A stretch of 37,397 nucleotides of DNA, taken from the IMG/VR virus record IMGVR_UViG_3300042466_000272, positions 1 to 37,397 of that record. One strand, written 5' to 3'. This stretch comes from a virus. A model generated the notes under the pieces. It saw only the letters and a program-made list of their open reading frames with translations. It did no database searches and was not told where the DNA came from. This document shows positions 2,517 to 25,015 of this stretch, one piece after another (position 1 is the stretch's first letter; every line of letters starts with the position of its first letter). Made by a program: the position numbers and the translations under genes.

Positions 2517-2964
2517 TTTTGAAAGCAAGCATGACGGCGTGAACGACACCGTTGAGTTTGTTGTGCGCGTGGCCATCGTCACGCTATCGGCAGTTATCCT
2601 TGTTGTTGTGCTGACACTGGCCGTAGGTCTGTTTGTCCCCAACGACGTGGTTGATAGCACGGCCATCATTGAGATGATTAACCCTGCGTTCCAGACCATC
2701 ATCGGTGCGTTCGTCGGCCTGCTGGGCGGGCTAAGCCTTAACGCCAATGCGCGTGACAAAGAGCCAGAGGTAGCGCCAGAACCCGAAGCGCCCAAGCCAT
2801 ACAGCGATCCGAACGGCACCGTCTTTATTGGTGAGCCTGAAGAGGACGAAGACGACGACATGGAGCCGTGGGAGAAGTATCGCAACGACCTACGCTACGA
2901 CGTCACCGGCGACGGTGTGGTCGACGAAAACGACTTCCCTGCTTGGCGGAGTGCTGGCAAATGA
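2500..2964 (+). CDS. Two-segment membrane protein with C-terminal EF-hand/dockerin-like loop, holin-related candidate
   Basis: 154 aa; the ATG at 2500 lies inside the previous gene and follows a good AAGGAGA site. Hydrophobic residues about 22-46 (FVVRVAIVTLSAVILVVVLT) and about 63-85 (INPAFQTIIGAFVGLLGG) predict two membrane segments. A long acidic, proline-rich stretch follows (EVAPEPEAPKP, EPEEDEDDDMEPWE), then a C-terminal DVTGDGVVDENDF loop with Asp/Thr/Asp/Asp/Asp at calcium-ligand spacing, as in dockerin-type EF hands. The domain is probably extra-membrane and calcium-binding. The stop overlaps the endolysin start (ATGA), so the two are probably translated together. A holin or holin-regulator role is inferred from position and topology only. 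Confidence 0.65.
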   Translation: MSFLNSFESKHDGVNDTVEFVVRVAIVTLSAVILVVVLTLAVGLFVPNDVVDSTAIIEMINPAFQTIIGAFVGLLGGLSLNANARDKEPEVAPEPEAPKPYSDPNGTVFIGEPEEDEDDDMEPWEKYRNDLRYDVTGDGVVDENDFPAWRSAGK

Positions 2965-3572
2965 GCCTTGTTGAACTGCAAAAGAAGATCGGAGTAACGG
3001 CAGATGGCGCATTCGGTCCGGGTACTTTTAGGAAAGCTGCGGCTTTTTATAAGCTATCACCTGATCGTGCTGCACATTTCTTTGCTCAAACTGCGCATGA
3101 AAGCGGCGGCTTCAAAGCATTCTCGGAGAATTTGAACTATGGCGCAAAAGGACTTCGCAGCATTTTTAGGAAGTATTTCCCTACTGATGCAATGGCTAAA
3201 GCGTATGAACGCCAGCCAAAAAAGATTGCTAATCGGGTATACGCAAATCGCATGGGCAATGGTGATGAAGCGTCTGGGGATGGCTGGAAGTTCCGTGGAC
3301 GTGGCGCTCTCCAACTTACTGGAAAAGCAAATTACCAAGCTTTCGCAAGCTACATCGGACGACCCCAAATAATGGATAACCCCGACCTTGTGTCGGGTGA
3401 ACTGTGTTTTGAGAGCGCGTTGTGGTTCTTCGACAAGAACAAATTGTGGGGCATCTGCGATCAAGGCGTCGGCGACGGCGCGATCCTCGCGCTGACGAAG
3501 CGCATTAACGGTGGCACGCACGGCCTTGATGACCGCAAGGCCAAGACGAAGAAGTACGCCGCATGGCTGTAA
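2961..3572 (+). CDS. Endolysin, GH19 chitinase/lysozyme family
   Basis: 203 aa from the ATG at 2961 (ATGA overlap with the preceding stop); a longer reading frame from 2868 would run through the upstream protein in another frame and is not used. Residues 1-32 resemble half of a peptidoglycan-binding repeat (LQKKIGVTADGAFGPGTF). The catalytic domain follows: FAQTAHESGGF with the general acid E47, ENLNY with the second Glu at about 57, and the GWKFRGRGALQLTGKANY substrate-cleft motif. The enzyme should cleave glycan strands of peptidoglycan. There is no signal peptide or anchor, so it needs a holin to reach the wall, consistent with the two membrane genes just upstream and the spanins downstream. 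Confidence 0.92.
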   Translation: MSLVELQKKIGVTADGAFGPGTFRKAAAFYKLSPDRAAHFFAQTAHESGGFKAFSENLNYGAKGLRSIFRKYFPTDAMAKAYERQPKKIANRVYANRMGNGDEASGDGWKFRGRGALQLTGKANYQAFASYIGRPQIMDNPDLVSGELCFESALWFFDKNKLWGICDQGVGDGAILALTKRINGGTHGLDDRKAKTKKYAAWL

Positions 3573-3937
3573 ACCCATTCCTATTGTACGCCATTGGCGG
3601 CGCGCTTATTCTCGGTGCGGCCTCTGGATACAAGGTGCGCGACTGGCAGTGCGATGCGGCATACGCAAAGGCGTTCGAGAAAACCGAAAAGTCGCGCGTC
3701 GAAAAACAAGGAATAGTAGATGATGTTTCGCAAACCTACGAATACGAACGAGATCAAGCCAATGTCGTGGCAACCGAACGAACCAACACTATTCGTGAAA
3801 TATACAAAACGGTTCCTGCCACCCCTGCTGATTGCGCTGCTCCTGATGCTGTGCGCGGGTTGCTCGAAAGCGGTGTCCGTGACGCCAATGCCGCTTCCTC
3901 CGGCAAACCTAGCAGCGAAGTGTCCGGCTCTGAGTAA
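3563..3937 (+). CDS. Rz: Rz-type inner-membrane spanin (i-spanin)
   Basis: 124 aa; the start overlaps the endolysin stop by ten bases. The N-terminus MAVNPFLLYAIGGALILGAA is a single uncleaved membrane anchor. It is followed by a charged helical region (residues 25-80: DWQCDAAYAKAFEKTEKSR, YEYERDQANVVATERTNTI) expected to form the periplasmic coiled coil that joins the outer-membrane partner. The C-terminus is low-complexity Ser/Ala-rich. Topology, position right after the endolysin and the overlapping lipoprotein gene identify it as Rz, although spanins share little sequence. It acts in the last lysis step by fusing inner and outer membranes. Confidence 0.8.
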   Translation: MAVNPFLLYAIGGALILGAASGYKVRDWQCDAAYAKAFEKTEKSRVEKQGIVDDVSQTYEYERDQANVVATERTNTIREIYKTVPATPADCAAPDAVRGLLESGVRDANAASSGKPSSEVSGSE

Positions 3938-4073
3938 TCCGCCACTGGTGCTGATCGACCCTGAGCGGGCGCTCTGGGAAGCCGACATCATTGCAAAGTA
4001 TACGGATTGTAGTGTAAAGCATCGCCTGACAGTTCAAGCATGGGAAGAGGCTGTAAAAATCCCAAATAAGTGA
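3720..4073 (+). CDS. Rz1: Rz1-type lipoprotein spanin (o-spanin), overlapping Rz in another frame
   Basis: 117 aa from ATG 3720, which has an AAGGA site seven bases upstream; ATG 3723 and 3762 are in-frame alternatives. Over 200 bases lie inside Rz in a different frame, the hallmark of Rz/Rz1 pairs. A basic stretch (KYTKRF) and hydrophobic core (LPPLLIALLLML) end in CAGC, giving a lipidated Cys at about residue 48; Cys in the -3 position is unusual. The mature part starts proline-rich (VTPMPLPPANLA), as Rz1 proteins do, but extends some 60 residues past the end of Rz with Cys residues that could form disulfides. It should sit in the outer membrane and bind Rz. Confidence 0.75.
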   Translation: MMFRKPTNTNEIKPMSWQPNEPTLFVKYTKRFLPPLLIALLLMLCAGCSKAVSVTPMPLPPANLAAKCPALSNPPLVLIDPERALWEADIIAKYTDCSVKHRLTVQAWEEAVKIPNK

Positions 4074-4107
4074 TATAAGAACTTTAGTCTTACGCACAGG
4101 TAATTAA

Positions 4108-5589
4108 ATGGCGCTTATCCCTATCAGTATCCCGCCGGGTGTTTACCGCAACGGAACCGAACTTGACAGTTCTGGCCGGTGGTATGACGTGAACCTTGTG
4201 CGCTGGGTTGAGGGGATGATGCGTCCCGTCGGTGGGTGGCAGGAGCGAACCACAACCGCTCTTACCGGTAAAGCCCGTGGCATGATCGCATGGCGCTCTA
4301 ACAACAGCACCCGCTACATCTCTGTCGGAACGCACTCGAAGCTTTACGCTATTACACAGTCCAGTGTGATTGTGGACATCACGCCTGTCGGTTTTGTTCC
4401 CGGCAACCCGAATGCGTCTGTCGGTGGCGGCTATGGCGTCGGTCTTTACAGTGCTGGCTTTTACGGTACACCGCGCCCAGACGTTGGCGTTGTTACCCCG
4501 GCCACGACATGGACGCTGGATACATGGGGCGAGTATCTCGTCGGCTGCTCAAACTTTGACGGCAAGATTTATGAGTGGCAGTTGGACACGACAACGCCGA
4601 CAAAGGCTGCTGTCGTAACGAACGCGCCGACATCTAACACTGGCGTTCTAGTCACGAACGAACGCTCGATGTTTGCTCTTGGTGCGTCTGGCAATCCGCG
4701 TAAGATTGCATGGTCTGATCTTGAAAACAACACGGTGTGGACGGCATCCTCCACGAACCTTGCCGGTAGCCTAGAGCTACAGACGGGTGGTAAGATTATC
4801 ACCGCCAAGCGTGTTCGTGGCCAAGTTCTCGTTCTCACGGACATTGACGCGCACGTCGTGTCCTATGTCGGCCAGCCATTTGTATATACATCTGAGTTCG
4901 CCGGTCGTGCGTGCGGCCTTGCTGGACCGAATGCGATTGCTGTTCAGGATAACTTCGCGGTCTGGATGGGTTCGCGTGGCTTCTATATGTACGACGGCTA
5001 CGTCAAATCTGTGCCGTGCGAAGTGTCGGACTATGTGTTCTCCGACATCAACCAAGCGCAGATCAGCAAGGCTTACGCCGTCAACAACTCGCAGTTCGAT
5101 GAAGTGTGGTTCTTCTATCCGTCCGCCTCCAGCCAAGAGAACAACCGCTATGTGATTTGGAACTACGCCCAGAACAACTGGTCGATTGGCTCGTTGGGCC
5201 GTTCAGCCGGTATTGACCGTGGCGTGTTCGCCAACCCATTGATGGTGTCCGATGACGGCTTTATTTACGATCACGAGATCGGGATGAACCACGGGACGGA
5301 AAGCGTGTTCGCCGAGACAGGGCCAGTGCAGATTGGACAAGGCGACAACATCCTGTATATCAACGAGATGATCCCAGACGAACGCAACCAAGGCGAAGTC
5401 ACTGCGACCTTCTCTTCTCGCTATTATCCGAATGGCGATAAGCAGACGTTCGGCCCCTATACCCTGACGAACCCTACGTCTGTCCGCTTCAATGGCCGAC
5501 AAATCCAGATGAAGGTGACGGCGGTTAATAACTCCGATTGGCGGGTTGGGACGCAGCGGCTTAACGCTATACCGGGTGGGCGTCGATGA
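4108..5589 (+). CDS. Tail nozzle / packaged-DNA stabilisation protein, P22 gp10-like
   Basis: 493 aa. It begins MALIPISIPPGVYRNGTELD and has repeated short beta units with aromatic and Gly residues (GKARGMIAWR, ISVGTHSKLYAI, LVGCSNFDGKIYEW, FAVWMGSRGFYMYDG, VIWNYAQNNWSIGS). This fits the beta-propeller fold of P22-type gp10 hub/nozzle proteins, and the length is close to P22 gp10 (about 470). The C-terminal W-R-x-G-x-x-R-L-x-x-x-P-G-G-R-R signature is typical of these tail proteins. In the virion it would plug the portal-adaptor channel and hold packaged DNA. It overlaps the next gene by ATGA. The fold assignment is by pattern, not alignment. Confidence 0.7.
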   Translation: MALIPISIPPGVYRNGTELDSSGRWYDVNLVRWVEGMMRPVGGWQERTTTALTGKARGMIAWRSNNSTRYISVGTHSKLYAITQSSVIVDITPVGFVPGNPNASVGGGYGVGLYSAGFYGTPRPDVGVVTPATTWTLDTWGEYLVGCSNFDGKIYEWQLDTTTPTKAAVVTNAPTSNTGVLVTNERSMFALGASGNPRKIAWSDLENNTVWTASSTNLAGSLELQTGGKIITAKRVRGQVLVLTDIDAHVVSYVGQPFVYTSEFAGRACGLAGPNAIAVQDNFAVWMGSRGFYMYDGYVKSVPCEVSDYVFSDINQAQISKAYAVNNSQFDEVWFFYPSASSQENNRYVIWNYAQNNWSIGSLGRSAGIDRGVFANPLMVSDDGFIYDHEIGMNHGTESVFAETGPVQIGQGDNILYINEMIPDERNQGEVTATFSSRYYPNGDKQTFGPYTLTNPTSVRFNGRQIQMKVTAVNNSDWRVGTQRLNAIPGGRR

Positions 5590-16923: not shown

Positions 16924-17066
16924 ATTCTTTCCCTCTTTTTTGTCGGTATCACGTTTGCTTTCCCTATAGCTGGCACAAATCATATAGTGCCGTCAACAAA
17001 AAAAGTTCTTGCATTCGATATTCAACTTGTGCCACCCAAGAAGGGCAACAAGAAAGTAGGGAGATT
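16924..17066. promoter_or_regulatory. Divergent control region between the leftward replication and rightward early operons
   Basis: 143 bases separate the divergent starts of the polymerase and the SANT-like regulator. An inverted repeat GGCAC-N10-GTGCC lies at 16972-16991 and a third GTGCC at 17030-17034. A run of A (16998-17004) gives an AT-rich core. Hexamers such as TATAGT (16983-16988) resemble -10 elements but I find no convincing -35 at the right distance. The region must hold promoters for both sides; the exact boxes are uncertain. Confidence 0.5.
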
Positions 17067-17837
17067 ATGGATAACAGTTTTACCGCGTGGAGCGCCGAAG
17101 ACGACGCCACCCTGATAGGGCTTTACGAGAATAAGCTGACGCACGCGCAGATCGCAGACGTGCTTGGCCGTTCAATCGACGCGATTGATGCTCGGCGTAG
17201 AAAGCTGGGGCTAAAGCGTGGCGTCATCATACGCAAAGCGCAAACGCCAGATGATTTCGAAGAGATGGCGAAGACCATGAACATGGCGCAACTCGCTGTC
17301 CATTACGGCCGTGTTAGGTCAGTGATCGCCCGCTGGGTCGAAGAACTCGAACTTACGGACCTTATTGTTGACCGACGTGGGACGGTGAAGGCTATCCCGC
17401 ATAACTTCCACAAGATGGCCCCGACTATGACCCGCGCCGAACTGATGCGGCTTTACAACACTGACCGCCTAACGATTAAGGGTTGGCTTAGGGAAGTGGG
17501 TATCACTTGCCAGTCGATTACGGAACGGCGTGCGCAAAATGCCAAGTCCGCTCCGGTCAAGATTGAGGAAGACGGCCCGGTTGTTCGGCGTGAATTCAAC
17601 GGCCGCACAAAATTGGTTGCCGCTGAAGCTGCGCGTTTTCTGCGCCGCCTACATTCGTCAGTCCATCGTGCGGATATAAAAATGTATGAGCATTCATCTC
17701 ACACATGGGGTGACGTTAAGAACATACCCCACCGAGGCATCAACCAATATTATGTCGCAGGCAAAGGCATCATGTGGCTTGATGACCTCATCGACTACGC
17801 TACATCAAAAGGTTTTAAGATAAAGGAATTAACATGA
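17067..17837 (+). CDS. Phage DNA-binding regulator with SANT/GcrA-like N-terminal HTH
   Basis: 256 aa from ATG 17067 with an AGGGAG site; the frame is open upstream across the control region and polymerase, but the divergent layout argues against it. Residues 6-52 (WSAEDDATLIGLYENKLTHA, QIADVLGRSIDAIDARRRKL) form a three-helix SANT/Myb-like domain like that at the start of GcrA regulators. Two further helix-turn-helix-like units follow: MNMAQLAVHYGRVRSVIARW at about 71-90 and MTRAELMRLYNTDRLTIKGW at about 121-140. So it reads as a triple-HTH protein. As the first gene of the rightward early operon it is probably a transcription factor for phage genes. The C-terminal 80 residues are not recognised. 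Confidence 0.7.
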   Translation: MDNSFTAWSAEDDATLIGLYENKLTHAQIADVLGRSIDAIDARRRKLGLKRGVIIRKAQTPDDFEEMAKTMNMAQLAVHYGRVRSVIARWVEELELTDLIVDRRGTVKAIPHNFHKMAPTMTRAELMRLYNTDRLTIKGWLREVGITCQSITERRAQNAKSAPVKIEEDGPVVRREFNGRTKLVAAEAARFLRRLHSSVHRADIKMYEHSSHTWGDVKNIPHRGINQYYVAGKGIMWLDDLIDYATSKGFKIKELT

Positions 17838-18956: not shown

Positions 18957-19178
18957 ATGGACAAGATAAGATGGAAAGACGAAGAACAAAAAGTGGACTT
19001 TGTTCCAGTATTCATAATCGGTTTTGAAGAAGAGTTTGAGCGCGGCGTAATAATATCAACCGCCGTGTATAAACTGATAGCCGAAACCGGGCATGATGCC
19101 GAACTCTATGTGATAGACGCGGCGGTAGATATGCTGATGCAGAAGCGCGACCAAATTGAAAAGAGGGATTTGAACTAA
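18957..19178 (+). CDS. Small early protein, 73 aa, unknown function
   Basis: Alternating strands and helices: VDFVPVFIIGFEEEFERGVI, STAVYKLIAETGHDAELYVI, then an amphipathic helix DAAVDMLMQKRDQIEKRD. Its stop overlaps the primase-helicase start (TAATG), so it probably couples translation to that large enzyme. No Shine-Dalgarno of note and no known domain. A role as a replication accessory is possible from position alone. Confidence 0.6.
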   Translation: MDKIRWKDEEQKVDFVPVFIIGFEEEFERGVIISTAVYKLIAETGHDAELYVIDAAVDMLMQKRDQIEKRDLN

Positions 19179-21649
19179 TGAAATTTAAGACACTGTATGA
19201 GGTCGGGTTCACCGACCTCGTGTCCGTTATCCCACCGAACGCTGAGTTGTCGGCCATGTCTAAAATCCAAGCGGATCAGGCAGGCAAAGCGCCCGGTCGG
19301 CAGAATGCGCAAGGCACATGGGGCGGCTATGCTTGGCAGGACTATGTGCCTACGCCCAATGATGTTGAGCGGTGGGACCGCAGCCATGCTAATATCGGCT
19401 TGAAGGCCAGCAAATATCCTGCGGTTGACATTGATGTTGTTAACGAGGGGCTGGCTAGGGTCATTGGCGATATGGCGGTGAAGGCATTGGGCAAAGCCCC
19501 GATGCGTATTGGCCGCTATCCTAAGCGGCTGCTCATGTACCGCACCGATGAAAAGATTGGTCGGATGCAGGTGCGGTTTCGTGACGGCATGGGCGTCGAG
19601 CAGCTTGTAGAGTTTCTAGGGGACGGGCAGCAATACGTCATCGCAGGTATTCACCCTATCACTAAGGAGCCATACAGTCTCGATGTGGACTTGGAGGCAC
19701 GCGGCCCGGCTGGGTTGAAGAAGGTCACGCGGGAAAAGATTGAGCGGTTCTTTGCTGATCTGACGGAGACGTTGGAGATGATGGGCTGCGAGATTATCCA
19801 CGCCGACAAGACGGCACAGAAGGCAGTCGAGCGGCAGTCGGTCGATCAGGCTTCGCTCACCGCGCCAAGCGTTATCCATGTGGCTGCTGCCGTGACCGCG
19901 ATCCCGAACAAGACCGAACACTTCCCTGACCGTGATGACTATATCCGTATGGGCTATGCTATAAAAGCAGCATGTGGCCCTGACAATGAGACGGATGCGT
20001 TCGAGATTTTCGCAGGCTGGGCCGAACGTTGGGAAGACGGCGTTAACTCGCTCGATACTATCGAAGCAGACTTCGGCCGTATGCACCCACCCTATGAGTT
20101 GGGTTGGGACTGGCTGGCGAACAAGGCTGCGACCTTTGGTTACAAGCGCGAGGTCGATGAGTTCGATGTGACGGACTTCAGCGACGAAGACTTCGGCGTG
20201 GTGGCCTCGGCTGGCGAAACGCCGATTGAGTATAGCGACATTGCATTGGCGCAGCGCGTTGCTCGGCTACACGTTTCGGATATCCGATACGTTGTGGGCG
20301 GCATGGGCTGGGTCGCATGGGATGGCAACAAGTGGGCCAAGGACGTAGCGAACAAGCATCTATCCATCGTCCGCAAGGTCTGCGCGCAAGCGTCGGCCGA
20401 GGCGTTGCAGAACATTGAAAGCCCACAAAAGGGTGAGCGGATCGCGCAGCGTGTGGCGTCGTACAATGTGATAGCCAACGTGGCGAAGCTGGCGGCTGTT
20501 GAGCCTGCCATGCAGGCGACAACCGAACAGCTAGACGCGGACATCTATATCCTCAACACCCGGTCGGGCATGGTGGACTTGAAGACGGGGGTCTTGTTCG
20601 CGCATGATCGTTCTCGCATGTGTACAAAATGCACATCGGTCGAGGCGGACTTCAGCAAGCCAGCCCCGCAATGGCAAGCGTTTCTCAATGAGGCGTGCAA
20701 CGGTGATAGTGAGTTAATCACTTACCTTCAAAGGTTGGCTGGCTATTCGGCTACAGGTTCGACCAAAGAGCATGTCCTCGCCTTCGCCCACGGCTCCGGC
20801 GGCAATGGCAAAGGAACCTTCCTCGGAGCGATAGGCAATATCCTTGGCGATTATGCCACCGTGGCCAGTGCGGACGTATTCTTGGCGTCGAACAATCAGC
20901 GTCACCCTACGGAGTTGGCGTCGTTGATGGGCGCTCGGCTGGTTCACGCGCAGGAGATTGACCCGTCGCGCAAGTGGGATGAAGCCAAGGTGAAGGCGCT
21001 TACTGGCGGGGACAAGATCAGCGCACGCTTCATGCGGCAGGATCTGTTTGAGTTCAATCCGCAGTTCACGCTTGTAATCGCGGGCAATACGAAGCCGGAG
21101 ATTACTAACGTGGACGACGCTATGCGTCGGCGTATGCACCTGATCCCGTTCGAGACTAAGCCGCTCCGCAAGGACGTTGACTTGCCGGACAAGCTGAAGG
21201 AAGAATACCCCGCCATCTTGGCGTGGGTTATCGAGGGTGCGAAGGCTTGGCTGGAGCAGGGCTTGAACCCACCGCAGGTAGTTATCCAAGCTACCGACGA
21301 GTATCTTGCGGGAGAAGATGCGTTGGCCCGCTGGATTACTGAGCGCTGCGTGGCTGGGCCTGACAACGAGATGACTACCAATGAGGCGTTCAATGATTTC
21401 CGTGACTGGTGCAAGGAAAACAACGAGGGCAAGGGGCGTGACTGGTCGCAGCGTAAGTTCAATGGAGAGATGAAGACGCATGGCTATGAACCCACAAGGG
21501 ATCGGGCGACACGAACGAAGCGTGTGTTCCGTGGTCTTGAACTTCTCATAGGCGATGAGGACTATATGGTTATCAACGCCATGATCGATGAGCAGTCGGA
21601 CGATTTCTTTGGCGTTCAGATAAACTTCAAAGCAGGTGAGGAGGATTAA
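19178..21649 (+). CDS. Bifunctional primase-polymerase / SF3 (D5-like) helicase
   Basis: 823 aa. Residues 1-200 form an archaeo-eukaryotic-type primase-polymerase domain: NIGLKASKYPAVDIDV with metal-binding D84 and D86, then VEFLGDGQQYVIAGIHP. Residues about 248-312 (DRDDYIRMGYAIKAA, DAFEIFAGWAERWEDG) match a PriCT-type linker. The helicase part has a D5_N-like region, Walker A GSGGNGKGT (539-547), Walker B RLVHAQEID (587-595), sensor NTKP (637-640) and an arginine-finger candidate at MRRRMH (649-654). It should prime and unwind DNA for the family A polymerase. The adjacent repeat-rich noncoding block is a natural site for it to load. Confidence 0.92.
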   Translation: MKFKTLYEVGFTDLVSVIPPNAELSAMSKIQADQAGKAPGRQNAQGTWGGYAWQDYVPTPNDVERWDRSHANIGLKASKYPAVDIDVVNEGLARVIGDMAVKALGKAPMRIGRYPKRLLMYRTDEKIGRMQVRFRDGMGVEQLVEFLGDGQQYVIAGIHPITKEPYSLDVDLEARGPAGLKKVTREKIERFFADLTETLEMMGCEIIHADKTAQKAVERQSVDQASLTAPSVIHVAAAVTAIPNKTEHFPDRDDYIRMGYAIKAACGPDNETDAFEIFAGWAERWEDGVNSLDTIEADFGRMHPPYELGWDWLANKAATFGYKREVDEFDVTDFSDEDFGVVASAGETPIEYSDIALAQRVARLHVSDIRYVVGGMGWVAWDGNKWAKDVANKHLSIVRKVCAQASAEALQNIESPQKGERIAQRVASYNVIANVAKLAAVEPAMQATTEQLDADIYILNTRSGMVDLKTGVLFAHDRSRMCTKCTSVEADFSKPAPQWQAFLNEACNGDSELITYLQRLAGYSATGSTKEHVLAFAHGSGGNGKGTFLGAIGNILGDYATVASADVFLASNNQRHPTELASLMGARLVHAQEIDPSRKWDEAKVKALTGGDKISARFMRQDLFEFNPQFTLVIAGNTKPEITNVDDAMRRRMHLIPFETKPLRKDVDLPDKLKEEYPAILAWVIEGAKAWLEQGLNPPQVVIQATDEYLAGEDALARWITERCVAGPDNEMTTNEAFNDFRDWCKENNEGKGRDWSQRKFNGEMKTHGYEPTRDRATRTKRVFRGLELLIGDEDYMVINAMIDEQSDDFFGVQINFKAGEED

Positions 21650-21651
21650 CA

Positions 21652-21942
21652 ATGTATGGGAACGATTTTATGAAATACAAAGCCATTCGGGATGCGCTCG
21701 ATCAGGATGTAGTCGATGTGGTCAATAGCCCTCCGCATTATAAGTCCGGTGGCATCGAGGCCATCGAAGGGATCGAAGCGTCGATGGAGCCGGAGGCATA
21801 TGCTGGCTACCTCAAGGGCAATATCATGAAATATATGTGGCGCTATGAGAGGAAGGGGAAGCCCGTTGAGGACTTGAAAAAGGCACAATGGTATCTTGGT
21901 CGGCTCATCGCTGCGCAGGAGAAAGTGAGCAGCCGAGATTGA
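21652..21942 (+). CDS. DUF3310 family protein
   Basis: 96 aa, two bases after the primase-helicase. The signature VNSPPHYKSGGIEAIEGIEA, YLKGNIMKYMWRYERKGKP and DLKKAQWYLGRLI is the full DUF3310 domain (residues 23-87), a small helical module common in phages and related in pattern to parts of nucleotide-metabolism or MazG-like proteins. The biochemical role is not established. The first 22 residues are not conserved. It is the last gene of the rightward early operon and is followed by an intrinsic terminator. Confidence 0.85.
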   Translation: MYGNDFMKYKAIRDALDQDVVDVVNSPPHYKSGGIEAIEGIEASMEPEAYAGYLKGNIMKYMWRYERKGKPVEDLKKAQWYLGRLIAAQEKVSSRD

Positions 21943-21979: not shown

Positions 21980-22027
21980 TTTACGCGAACGTAAAGTAGA
22001 CTGAGGGGGCTTCGGCTCCCTTTTTTT
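21980..22027 (+). terminator. Intrinsic terminator of the early operon (two hairpins)
   Basis: A first hairpin TTTACG-CGAA-CGTAAA (21980-21995) is followed by GGGGGC-TTCG-GCTCCC (22005-22020), one G-T wobble, with a stable UUCG tetraloop and seven T (22021-22027). This is a textbook rho-independent terminator 62 bases after the DUF3310 stop. Confidence 0.9.
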
Positions 22028-22327
22028 AAATCCGTGCACGGTTTGAGATGGTTCGGGCCGGGTTGGTGCCGGGTTTAGGGCCAGATAAAATGGCTGAAAT
22101 CTAAGGATGTGCCGGGAGTGCCGGGTTTAAAAAAGTTAATTGCCCCTAATATAAGTAACAGTGTTAGAAGTGGTCATATTACAATGTTACTTACTTATGG
22201 GGACTAATGCGCCGACAAACCGTGCACTCCCGGCCCAATGGCGGAAATGCGTGGGTAAACCCGGCCCTAAACCCGGCCCGAACCGTGCACGGAGATATGC
22301 AAACCGTGCACGGATGGCAGTTTTCCG
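22028..22327. other. Noncoding block of nested direct and inverted repeats: candidate replication origin or pac site
   Basis: No credible gene. Three perfect palindromes CCGTGCACGG (22032-22041, 22283-22292, 22304-22313; the last two 21 bp apart) and a partial CCGTGCAC (22220-22227) are present. GCCGGGTTTA occurs twice forward (22068-22077, 22120-22129) and twice inverted (22256-22265, 22268-22277), with shorter GCCGGG copies at 22057, 22111 and inverted at 22229. A 15-bp perfect inverted repeat, GGTTCGGGCCGGGTT, joins 22050-22064 and 22270-22284. The centre is AT-rich and has its own inverted repeat TAAGTAACA / TGTTACTTA (22152-22160, 22185-22193), framed by CCCC and GGGG. Iteron-like arrays plus an AT-rich core beside a primase-helicase suggest an origin. 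It also abuts the small terminase gene, so a terminase-binding site is the main alternative. Confidence 0.6.
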
Positions 22328-22858
22328 TTAATCGTCGTCAAAAACACCCGGCAAGTCGTCCGCATCGAGGTTATGAGAGCCGACTTGCTTGGTTGGTGTG
22401 ACGTCGATGGTGACTTCTTCTTCATGTGGGTTTGACCCGTCATGGTTTGATGACGCCAAGTTTAGCTGGCGCAGTGCATCAAGGTGGAGTTGGTTCACGT
22501 TGACTTGGACCGCTGTGGTCGGCTTGGCTTGGAACTTCTCTGGTGCTGCAACACCAGCCAACCATTTGCGTGTCTCGATCTTGAGCCTGTCAGCATTGGC
22601 CGATGTGTTGTCCGAGGCATCGGCGATGTCGAGGCACTCGTCCGCCCATTGGTCAGCCGCGATTGCCCGCGCCTGCTTGAACCGCTCCTCCCGATCTGGG
22701 TCTTTGCGTATCCAATGATAGAGAGAAAGGTTGCTGATGTTAAGTTCACGAGCAAGGCCAGCCATTGTCAGGCCGGATGCAATCTTCTCCAGCAGAACAG
22801 TCTCGCCAACCTTATCTAAGTTCGACGCAATCGTGCGCCGTTTAATATGTCCAGCCAT
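22328..22858 (-). CDS. terS: Small terminase subunit
   Basis: 176 aa, ATG 22858 with an AAGGA site. An N-terminal helix-turn-helix (residues 17-52: VGETVLLEKIASGLTMAGLA, RELNISNLSLYHWIRKDP) should bind the packaging site. The middle helical region (ERFKQARAIAADQWADECLD, then KIETRKWLAGVAAPEKF) is the oligomerisation core typical of small terminases of this type. The C-terminus is acidic (HNLDADDLPGVFDDD), probably the contact to the large subunit. Unusually it is on the minus strand, 2.1 kb from terL, as the last gene of a leftward regulatory operon, and has a perfect 11-bp inverted repeat in its leader. Confidence 0.85.
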   Translation of the reverse strand: MAGHIKRRTIASNLDKVGETVLLEKIASGLTMAGLARELNISNLSLYHWIRKDPDREERFKQARAIAADQWADECLDIADASDNTSANADRLKIETRKWLAGVAAPEKFQAKPTTAVQVNVNQLHLDALRQLNLASSNHDGSNPHEEEVTIDVTPTKQVGSHNLDADDLPGVFDDD

Positions 22859-24334: not shown

Positions 24335-25015
24335 TTGGCAGTTTTTGGGTACACACGCGTCTCGACTGAAGACCAGATCGAGAACACATCGCTCGATGAT
24401 CAAGCCCGCCAAATCCAAGGCATCGCGCTCACGCATAATTTGGAACTGGACCATATATACGAAGAGCGCGGCGTCTCTGGCGGTGTTCCGCTGCTACGCC
24501 GAGAAGAAGGCTGCAAGCTGGCGTTCCTCCGGCCGGGCGATACCGTTATCGTATCGAAGCTGGACCGTATGTTCCGCGATGCGAGAGACGCACTAAACGT
24601 GATTGCCGACTGGGAGACGGCGAACATTAATCTCATCATCAATGGCTACGGCAATGTGATGGACAAGGCCAACCCGAACGGCCGCTTCATGTTAGAGATC
24701 ATGGCCGTCTTTTCTGGCGAGGAGCGCCGCCGTATCAGAGAACGTGTCACCGCCGGTAAGAGAGCCAAGCGTTCGCAGGGTGGATATGTCGGTGGCAAAG
24801 TGCCATTCGGATTTAAGAAGTCGGGCACAGGCCGCAAGGCCAAGCTGCACCCAGAACCAAACGCGCAGGACGCATTGATAACAATGAAAGCCGCACGCGT
24901 TAAAGGCCATAGCTACCGCGATATTGCTATTATCGTAGCAAAGCGTCATGGTATCACGGTCAGTCACCAAACAATCGCACGAGTAATCAGGGGAGATAAG
25001 AATGACGAAATCTGA
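24335..25015 (+). CDS. Small serine recombinase (resolvase/invertase family)
   Basis: 226 aa, TTG start with GGGAG eight bases upstream. Resolvase catalytic domain: VFGYTRVSTEDQ with nucleophile S10, IVSKLDRMFRDARDALNV with the conserved Arg residues, and GRFMLEIMAVFSGEERRRIR leading into the long E helix. The C-terminus (YRDIAIIVAKRHGITVSHQT) is a helix-turn-helix DNA-binding domain. Size and layout match resolvases and invertases, not large serine integrases (450 aa or more with zinc-ribbon domain). It could resolve multimers of a circular phage form, invert a segment, or integrate DNA. No crossover site is proven. It overlaps terL by 14 bases, so a repressed recombinase promoter would also affect packaging. 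Confidence 0.88.
   Translation: MAVFGYTRVSTEDQIENTSLDDQARQIQGIALTHNLELDHIYEERGVSGGVPLLRREEGCKLAFLRPGDTVIVSKLDRMFRDARDALNVIADWETANINLIINGYGNVMDKANPNGRFMLEIMAVFSGEERRRIRERVTAGKRAKRSQGGYVGGKVPFGFKKSGTGRKAKLHPEPNAQDALITMKAARVKGHSYRDIAIIVAKRHGITVSHQTIARVIRGDKNDEI

Follow-up and report, generated by a model that had tools for sequence, protein, structure and literature searches.

An inward-facing repeat block, probably read by a P4-family primase-helicase, as the probable replication origin of an uncultured tailed phage and its close relatives

The record analysed here is a linear viral contig of 37,397 bases, the whole of which is referred to as the window. It codes for a primase-helicase of the P4 family, and 0.4 kb downstream of this gene, with one small gene in between, lies a block of repeats flanked by two convergent genes, DUF3310 on the plus strand and the small terminase subunit gene (TerS) on the minus strand. 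The features of this region are as follows.

19178..21649, plus strand: primase-helicase, 823 aa, the proposed initiator (D5_N, DUF5906, TIGR01613 'phage/plasmid primase, P4 family')
21302..21550, plus strand: C-terminal winged helix of the primase-helicase, residues ~709-791, the proposed origin-binding domain (AlphaFold2 model)
21652..21942, plus strand: DUF3310 gene, between primase-helicase and block and outside the origin; it serves as the control for hitch-hiking
~22004-22027, plus strand: terminator-like hairpin and T run, read from the sequence, which ends the primase/DUF3310 transcript before the block
22030..22129, plus strand: left iteron array, five sites facing the core, a layout shared by relatives
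22032-22045, plus strand: left array site CCGTGCACGGTTTG
22052-22064, plus strand: left array site TTCGGGCCGGGTT
22066-22077, plus strand: left array site GTGCCGGGTTTA
22109-22129, plus strand: left array head-to-tail pair GTGCCGGGA/GTGCCGGGTTTA
22143..22202, no strand: AT-rich core with its own dyad, the presumed melting site
22217..22314, minus strand: right iteron array, six sites facing back to the core
22217-22237, minus strand: right array head-to-tail pair AAACCGTGCAC/TCCCGGCCC
22256-22279, minus strand: right array, two copies of TAAACCCGGCCC
22281-22292 and 22302-22313, minus strand: right array, two copies of AACCGTGCACGG
22328..22858, minus strand: small terminase subunit TerS (Sf6-like), convergent neighbour of the block

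In the block (22030-22315), a repeat of 8-12 bp forms a left array of five sites and a right array of six, which are mutually inverted and face each other across the AT-rich dyad. Its axis of symmetry falls at ~22172, and the outermost sites lie ~142 bp away on either side. The first-pass annotation of this DNA had described repeats pointing inward from both sides, and this is indeed the arrangement, with GCCGGGTTTA occurring twice rightward (22068-22077, 22120-22129) and twice leftward (22256-22265, 22268-22277). The 15-bp perfect inverted repeat that had been said to join the two flanks is also found (22050-22064/22270-22284), within a 53-nt inverted repeat of 77% (22030-22082/22263-22315), and the inner pair of sites forms a further one of 86% (22108-22128/22217-22237). 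The AT-rich core possesses the inverted repeat that had been ascribed to it, with arms at 22143-22164/22181-22202 (77%), and its 60 bp, with a GC content of 35%, rank in the bottom 1.2% of stretches of this size in the contig. The palindromes reported for the outer flanks are present on both sides, yet they number three rather than two; CCGTGCACGG has a single left-hand copy (22032-22041), two right-hand copies (22283-22292, 22304-22313) and none in the rest of the 37.4 kb. As for its position, the block does lie between a terminator and the small terminase gene, as had been noted, and near the primase-helicase on its downstream side, but does not adjoin it, since the DUF3310 gene sits between them.

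The block greatly exceeds what chance would produce. Perfect inverted repeats in it reach 16 nt, the commonest 8-mer has 7 copies and the 8-mers present at least three times amount to 50 copies in total, compared with at most 11 nt, 5 copies and 5 copies, respectively, in 200 dinucleotide shuffles. There is no copy of GTGCACGG in the record outside the block, and the iterons cluster at the block alone in 11/11 genomes checked. Cumulative GC skew, which had been proposed as a check for an origin, has a detrended peak at 22531 that is compatible with one, but the gene orientation switches there and confounds the signal; in 4/6 near-complete genomes the peak is likewise within ~0.6 kb of the block, where gene orientation also changes.

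A scan with TerS gathered 80 loci of relatives, and every one of them that reads far enough has the block, directly after the TerS stop. The arrays are conserved in two mutually exclusive spellings: spelling A is GTGCAC or GGGCCGGG, and spelling B is GGGACG. Each of the 72 classifiable blocks belongs to A or to B and contains no more than one stray match to the other class, and in each the whole array changes spelling together. In 61 distinct loci that contain both the block and the end of the primase gene, the A sites are GTGCACGG (278 occurrences), GTGCATGG (91), GGGCCGGG (80) and GTGCCGGG (43), and the B sites are GGGACG/GGGACA (207); GGGCCGGG and GGGACGGG are one base pair apart, this position being C in A sites and A in B sites. 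Both spellings can be found in one sample, as in IMG/VR 3300049827, from which L010 carries A and L050 carries B. The spelling is scattered on the tree of flanking sequences, with 14 changes, at least 8 of them forced, against a mean of 15.1 when shuffled; across the sequences of the 61 loci it is thus independent of the flanking genes.

The cores of the relatives also fall into two kinds, which are unrelated AT-rich dyads: type I, AAGTAACANTGT...ACACTGTTACTT, and type II, GGGTATT...AAATACCC. All four combinations with A and B occur. On the flank tree, the core types swap 16 times, independently of A/B (window 22143-22202; L007, L011-L014, L018, L051, L053), and there is no column tied to core type in the primase, DUF3310 or TerS. 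In many relatives with a type II core, a gene resembling HNH endonucleases lies between the block and DUF3310 (L007, L008, L011, L012, L013, L018, L073), and other relatives carry different cargo beside the block.

The distribution of the two spellings allows the protein that reads the repeats to be sought among those encoded by the phages. For this purpose, 21 shared proteins were aligned over 30 genomes (18 A and 12 B), and columns that separate A from B were sought. Perfect separation is found at residues 762 and 774 of the primase-helicase in all 18 A and 12 B genomes, and such a column is absent from all other shared proteins with a sample above 8 genomes. HNH1 and p4108 have one separating column each, in a sample of 8 genomes only, and DUF3310, HTH286 and EndoVII are much more variable than the primase-helicase, yet are devoid of an A/B column. 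Over the 61 loci, six residues of the primase-helicase carry the signal (733, 735, 762, 763, 772 and 774; NMI 0.64-1.00), and the runners-up reach a maximum of 0.30 in the primase, 0.17 in DUF3310 and 0.19 in TerS. The codons concerned form three groups.

21374..21382, plus strand: codons 733-735, at the start of helix 2; residues 733 and 735 covary with spelling (NMI 0.76 and 0.64)
21461..21466, plus strand: codons 762-763, in the recognition helix; N/G with A, T (S, I)/A with B (NMI 0.87 and 0.76)
21491..21499, plus strand: codons 772-774, in the first strand of the wing; residues 772 and 774 (NMI 0.70 and 1.00)

Residue 774 is a perfect indicator of the spelling, being Arg in 44/44 A loci and Lys in 17/17 B loci, and it tracks the spelling in 8/8 independent pairs on the flank tree (p=0.008). 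At the nucleotide level, an NMI above 0.3 is reached by 10/863 variable sites, all within codons 733-774, and by 0/172 sites in DUF3310 and 0/210 in TerS. Hitch-hiking by linkage is rejected, as both the intervening DUF3310 gene and the sites outside codons 733-774 ignore the spelling. Some of the synonymous sites in codons 733-774 follow the spelling as well, which makes it probable that recombination transfers the allele in a short tract of ~125 bp.

The same comparison bears on other functions that could be proposed for the block. It might be a pac site recognised by the adjoining TerS; pac sites are often located in or near terS, the adjacency of the TerS gene is constant in the relatives, and the core may have such a role. 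However, no column of TerS tracks the spelling (maximum NMI 0.19), and the repeats seem to switch with no matching change in TerS, as exemplified by L004, where a TerS 100% identical to that of the window is accompanied by B repeats. Binding of the repeats by TerS, as entertained in the first-pass annotation, is thus unsupported, and a pac function for the block is very unlikely. The small serine recombinase at 24335-25015 is encoded 2 kb from the block, and the inverted repeat of the core would suit a res or attP site for this enzyme, yet it is 92-99% identical across both spellings and core types, with no apparent discriminating column, and 11 iterons in two arrays are unlike a recombinase site; a recombination site is an explanation to which we give almost no credence. 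Much the same can be said of an array of operators bound by a transcription factor, for which the 286-aa HTH protein (16977-17837) would be a candidate. This is among the most variable of the shared proteins (45-93%), but none of its columns appears to follow the spelling, and the genes around the block converge, the window showing no evident promoter that it could control; an operator is extremely improbable. As readers of the repeats, TerS with a pac site, the serine recombinase and the 286-aa HTH protein are all rejected for want of covariation. An origin read by the primase-helicase is the only interpretation found that would explain why the iterons covary with its winged helix and with no other well-sampled shared protein. 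The covariation strongly supports recognition of the repeats by the primase-helicase, points to its C-terminal domain as the part that would recognise the iterons and lends support to the origin of replication that had been suggested for this site.

The primase-helicase matches TIGR01613 at 8.9e-89 (297 bits; cut-off 108.7), D5_N at 2.5e-24 and DUF5906 at 1.5e-12; the PHROG family 'DNA primase' covers nearly its full length, and a match to PriCT_2 falls below the cut-off. Its last 175 residues were modelled by AlphaFold2 with 29 phage sequences, and the model (mean pLDDT 72; 78-88 across the winged helix) predicts a C-terminal winged helix that would serve as the origin-binding domain. In the predicted fold, residues 733/735 open helix 2, the recognition helix contains 762/763, and 772/774 belong to the wing. 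Its structural matches are the tail of AsfvPrimPol (Z 9.4), the RFX DNA-binding domain (Z 8.7) and the origin-binding domain of phage P4 (1ka8, Z 7.8), three folds which have been grouped together in a published comparison (PMC10516667). When a sequence profile of the C-terminal domain was compared with solved structures, AsfvPrimPol alone was returned, with a weak E-value of 0.055.

The rule that connects residues and spelling extends to a sister group of phages, the primase of which is ~75% identical. Asn762/Arg774 is accompanied by GTGCAC repeats in L211, L213, L215, L217, L218, L222, L226, L228 and L232, and Ser or Thr762/Lys774 by GGGAC-type repeats in L205-L210, L219, L223, L224, L230 and L233, and by AGGACG in L214; Ser762/Arg774 is found with GCGGAC in L220 and L221. 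Two loci are exceptions. L216 combines an A-type domain with a B-type block, and its sequence matches L213 as far as the middle of DUF3310 and then diverges; L216 may represent a true mismatch, a recombinant or an assembly chimera. In L225, a collapsed block joins two types.

Among the loci found by pattern, 60/108 have a cluster, and nearly all of these carry genes of this phage family. The remaining clustered loci are L389 and L399/L425, which have distant primases, and the weak L438. No stand-alone arrays, which might be decoys or satellites, were found in IMG/VR with the two patterns. L389 (IMGVR_UViG_3300031396_000319, 2578-5270) codes for a P4-family primase of 26% identity and has, directly downstream, a small origin-like block in which pairs of GGGACGGAAGGGACGG face each other across an AT-rich stretch. 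Two further small blocks, L399:98-420 and L425:3377-3700 (IMGVR_UViG_2551306562_000001), have pairs of GGGACGGAAGGGACG and mirrored AAGGGACGCT sites, and this 48-kb contig also encodes a distant P4-family primase.

The gp-alpha protein of phage P4 combines primase, helicase and a winged-helix origin-binding domain in one protein, and the primase-helicase described here has the TIGR01613 P4-family domain and a predicted C-terminal fold matching 1ka8. The iteron sequence is different from that of P4 ori/crr, and there is a single block, no second iteron region having been found in the 11 genomes checked. The O protein of lambdoid phages is an unrelated initiator, which loads the host DnaB helicase and has its iterons within the O gene. 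It is similar in that a phage initiator binds iterons beside AT-rich DNA, and initiators and iterons also differ between lambdoid phages (PMC7466680). Cch2 of SCCmec is a Primase_Cterm helicase, the isolated C-terminal domain of which binds repeats downstream of its own gene, at a putative origin; its primase is a separate protein and its repeats are direct, spanning 23 bp with AAGTG as the iteron (PMC7581432).

A close parallel in layout is provided by the pri-rep-ori replicons of PICIs and SaPIs (EcCICFT073, SaPIbov1, SaPI5). The first-pass annotation did not recognise the nested mirror arrangement, yet in PICI/SaPI origins an AT-rich region lies between two sets of iterons (PMC6092414 Fig. 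2); as an origin, the block is of a known kind, the PICI/SaPI-type iteron origin. These elements, like the phage, have a P4-family primase-helicase or Rep and, as would be the case in the phage, an origin just downstream and a C-terminal domain that reads the iterons; allelic variants of the initiator exist in them as well. Their origins function on plasmids, and differing alleles of initiator and iteron are known between PICIs (PMC6092414). SaPI Rep, like Cch2, binds iterons downstream of its own gene via the C-terminal domain, apparently as two hexamers (PMC7581432). The present case differs from them in that it concerns a tailed phage that encodes an A-family polymerase, an exonuclease and an SSB of its own, that a DUF3310 gene intervenes between initiator and origin, and that near-identical genomes repeatedly exchange one of two exclusive iteron spellings for the other. 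No description of such a repeated switch of the whole array among phages with ~93% identical primases, or of its six-residue rule, was found in the open-licence literature.

The block is very probably the replication origin of the phage, with iterons that the C-terminal winged helix of the P4-family primase-helicase would bind. By analogy with SaPI, PICI and P4, the winged helix would bind the 8-12 bp iterons and, because the arrays face in opposite directions, two oppositely oriented assemblies, probably hexamers, would form on either side of the AT-rich core. The core would then melt and allow helicase rings to load onto the single strands, and the N-terminal part of the protein would prime synthesis, such that replication may proceed away from the block in both directions. 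That recognition serves initiation is suggested by these relatives, and covariation as such indicates recognition rather than initiation. The primase-helicase could therefore bind the arrays for copy-number control, incompatibility or autoregulation, in the manner of P4 crr, with the true origin elsewhere; P4 itself has two iteron regions. Against this, one cluster per genome is present in the 11 genomes; moreover, the arrays converge from both sides on an AT-rich core, an arrangement also seen in PICI origins, and the block is found at the end of converging transcripts, away from the primase promoter. A control element is, on these grounds, an unlikely account of the block.

In this manner, natural variation alone links a repeat block from an uncultured phage with its most likely protein reader. 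The near-identical initiators differ at a few DNA-facing residues, each is accompanied by ~11 matching sites, and the combination has switched independently at least 8 times. Such naturally matched sets of initiators and sites would render the reading rule of P4-type origin-binding domains amenable to testing in vitro. They also raise the question of why a phage keeps changing the spelling of its origin. One conceivable answer, which we advance tentatively and consider rather doubtful, is that the two spellings are specificity groups held in balance within phage populations: a short tract for part of the winged helix and the separate block would be exchanged together repeatedly, because mismatched pairs would fail and because the rarer spelling would escape an exploiter or blocker of the common one. 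If so, the latter may be a rival phage infecting the same cell, a satellite or a decoy of the origin in the host.

The terminase and portal of the window are closest to those of phage contigs from spring water and of Sinorhizobium phage phiM5, which hints at an alphaproteobacterial host; a nucleotide search of named phages gave no match. In L204 (CP070811.1, an Anaerolineales MAG chromosome), the one genome hit, Ns connect a relative of the phage primase with unrelated bacterial sequence, a join that is likely due to mis-scaffolding or contamination and is uninformative with regard to the host. The 286-aa HTH protein shows 45-93% identity between phages with ~93% identical primases, and the serine recombinase, a short protein of 226 aa with a resolvase domain, is encoded beside TerL and retains 92-99% identity in the relatives.
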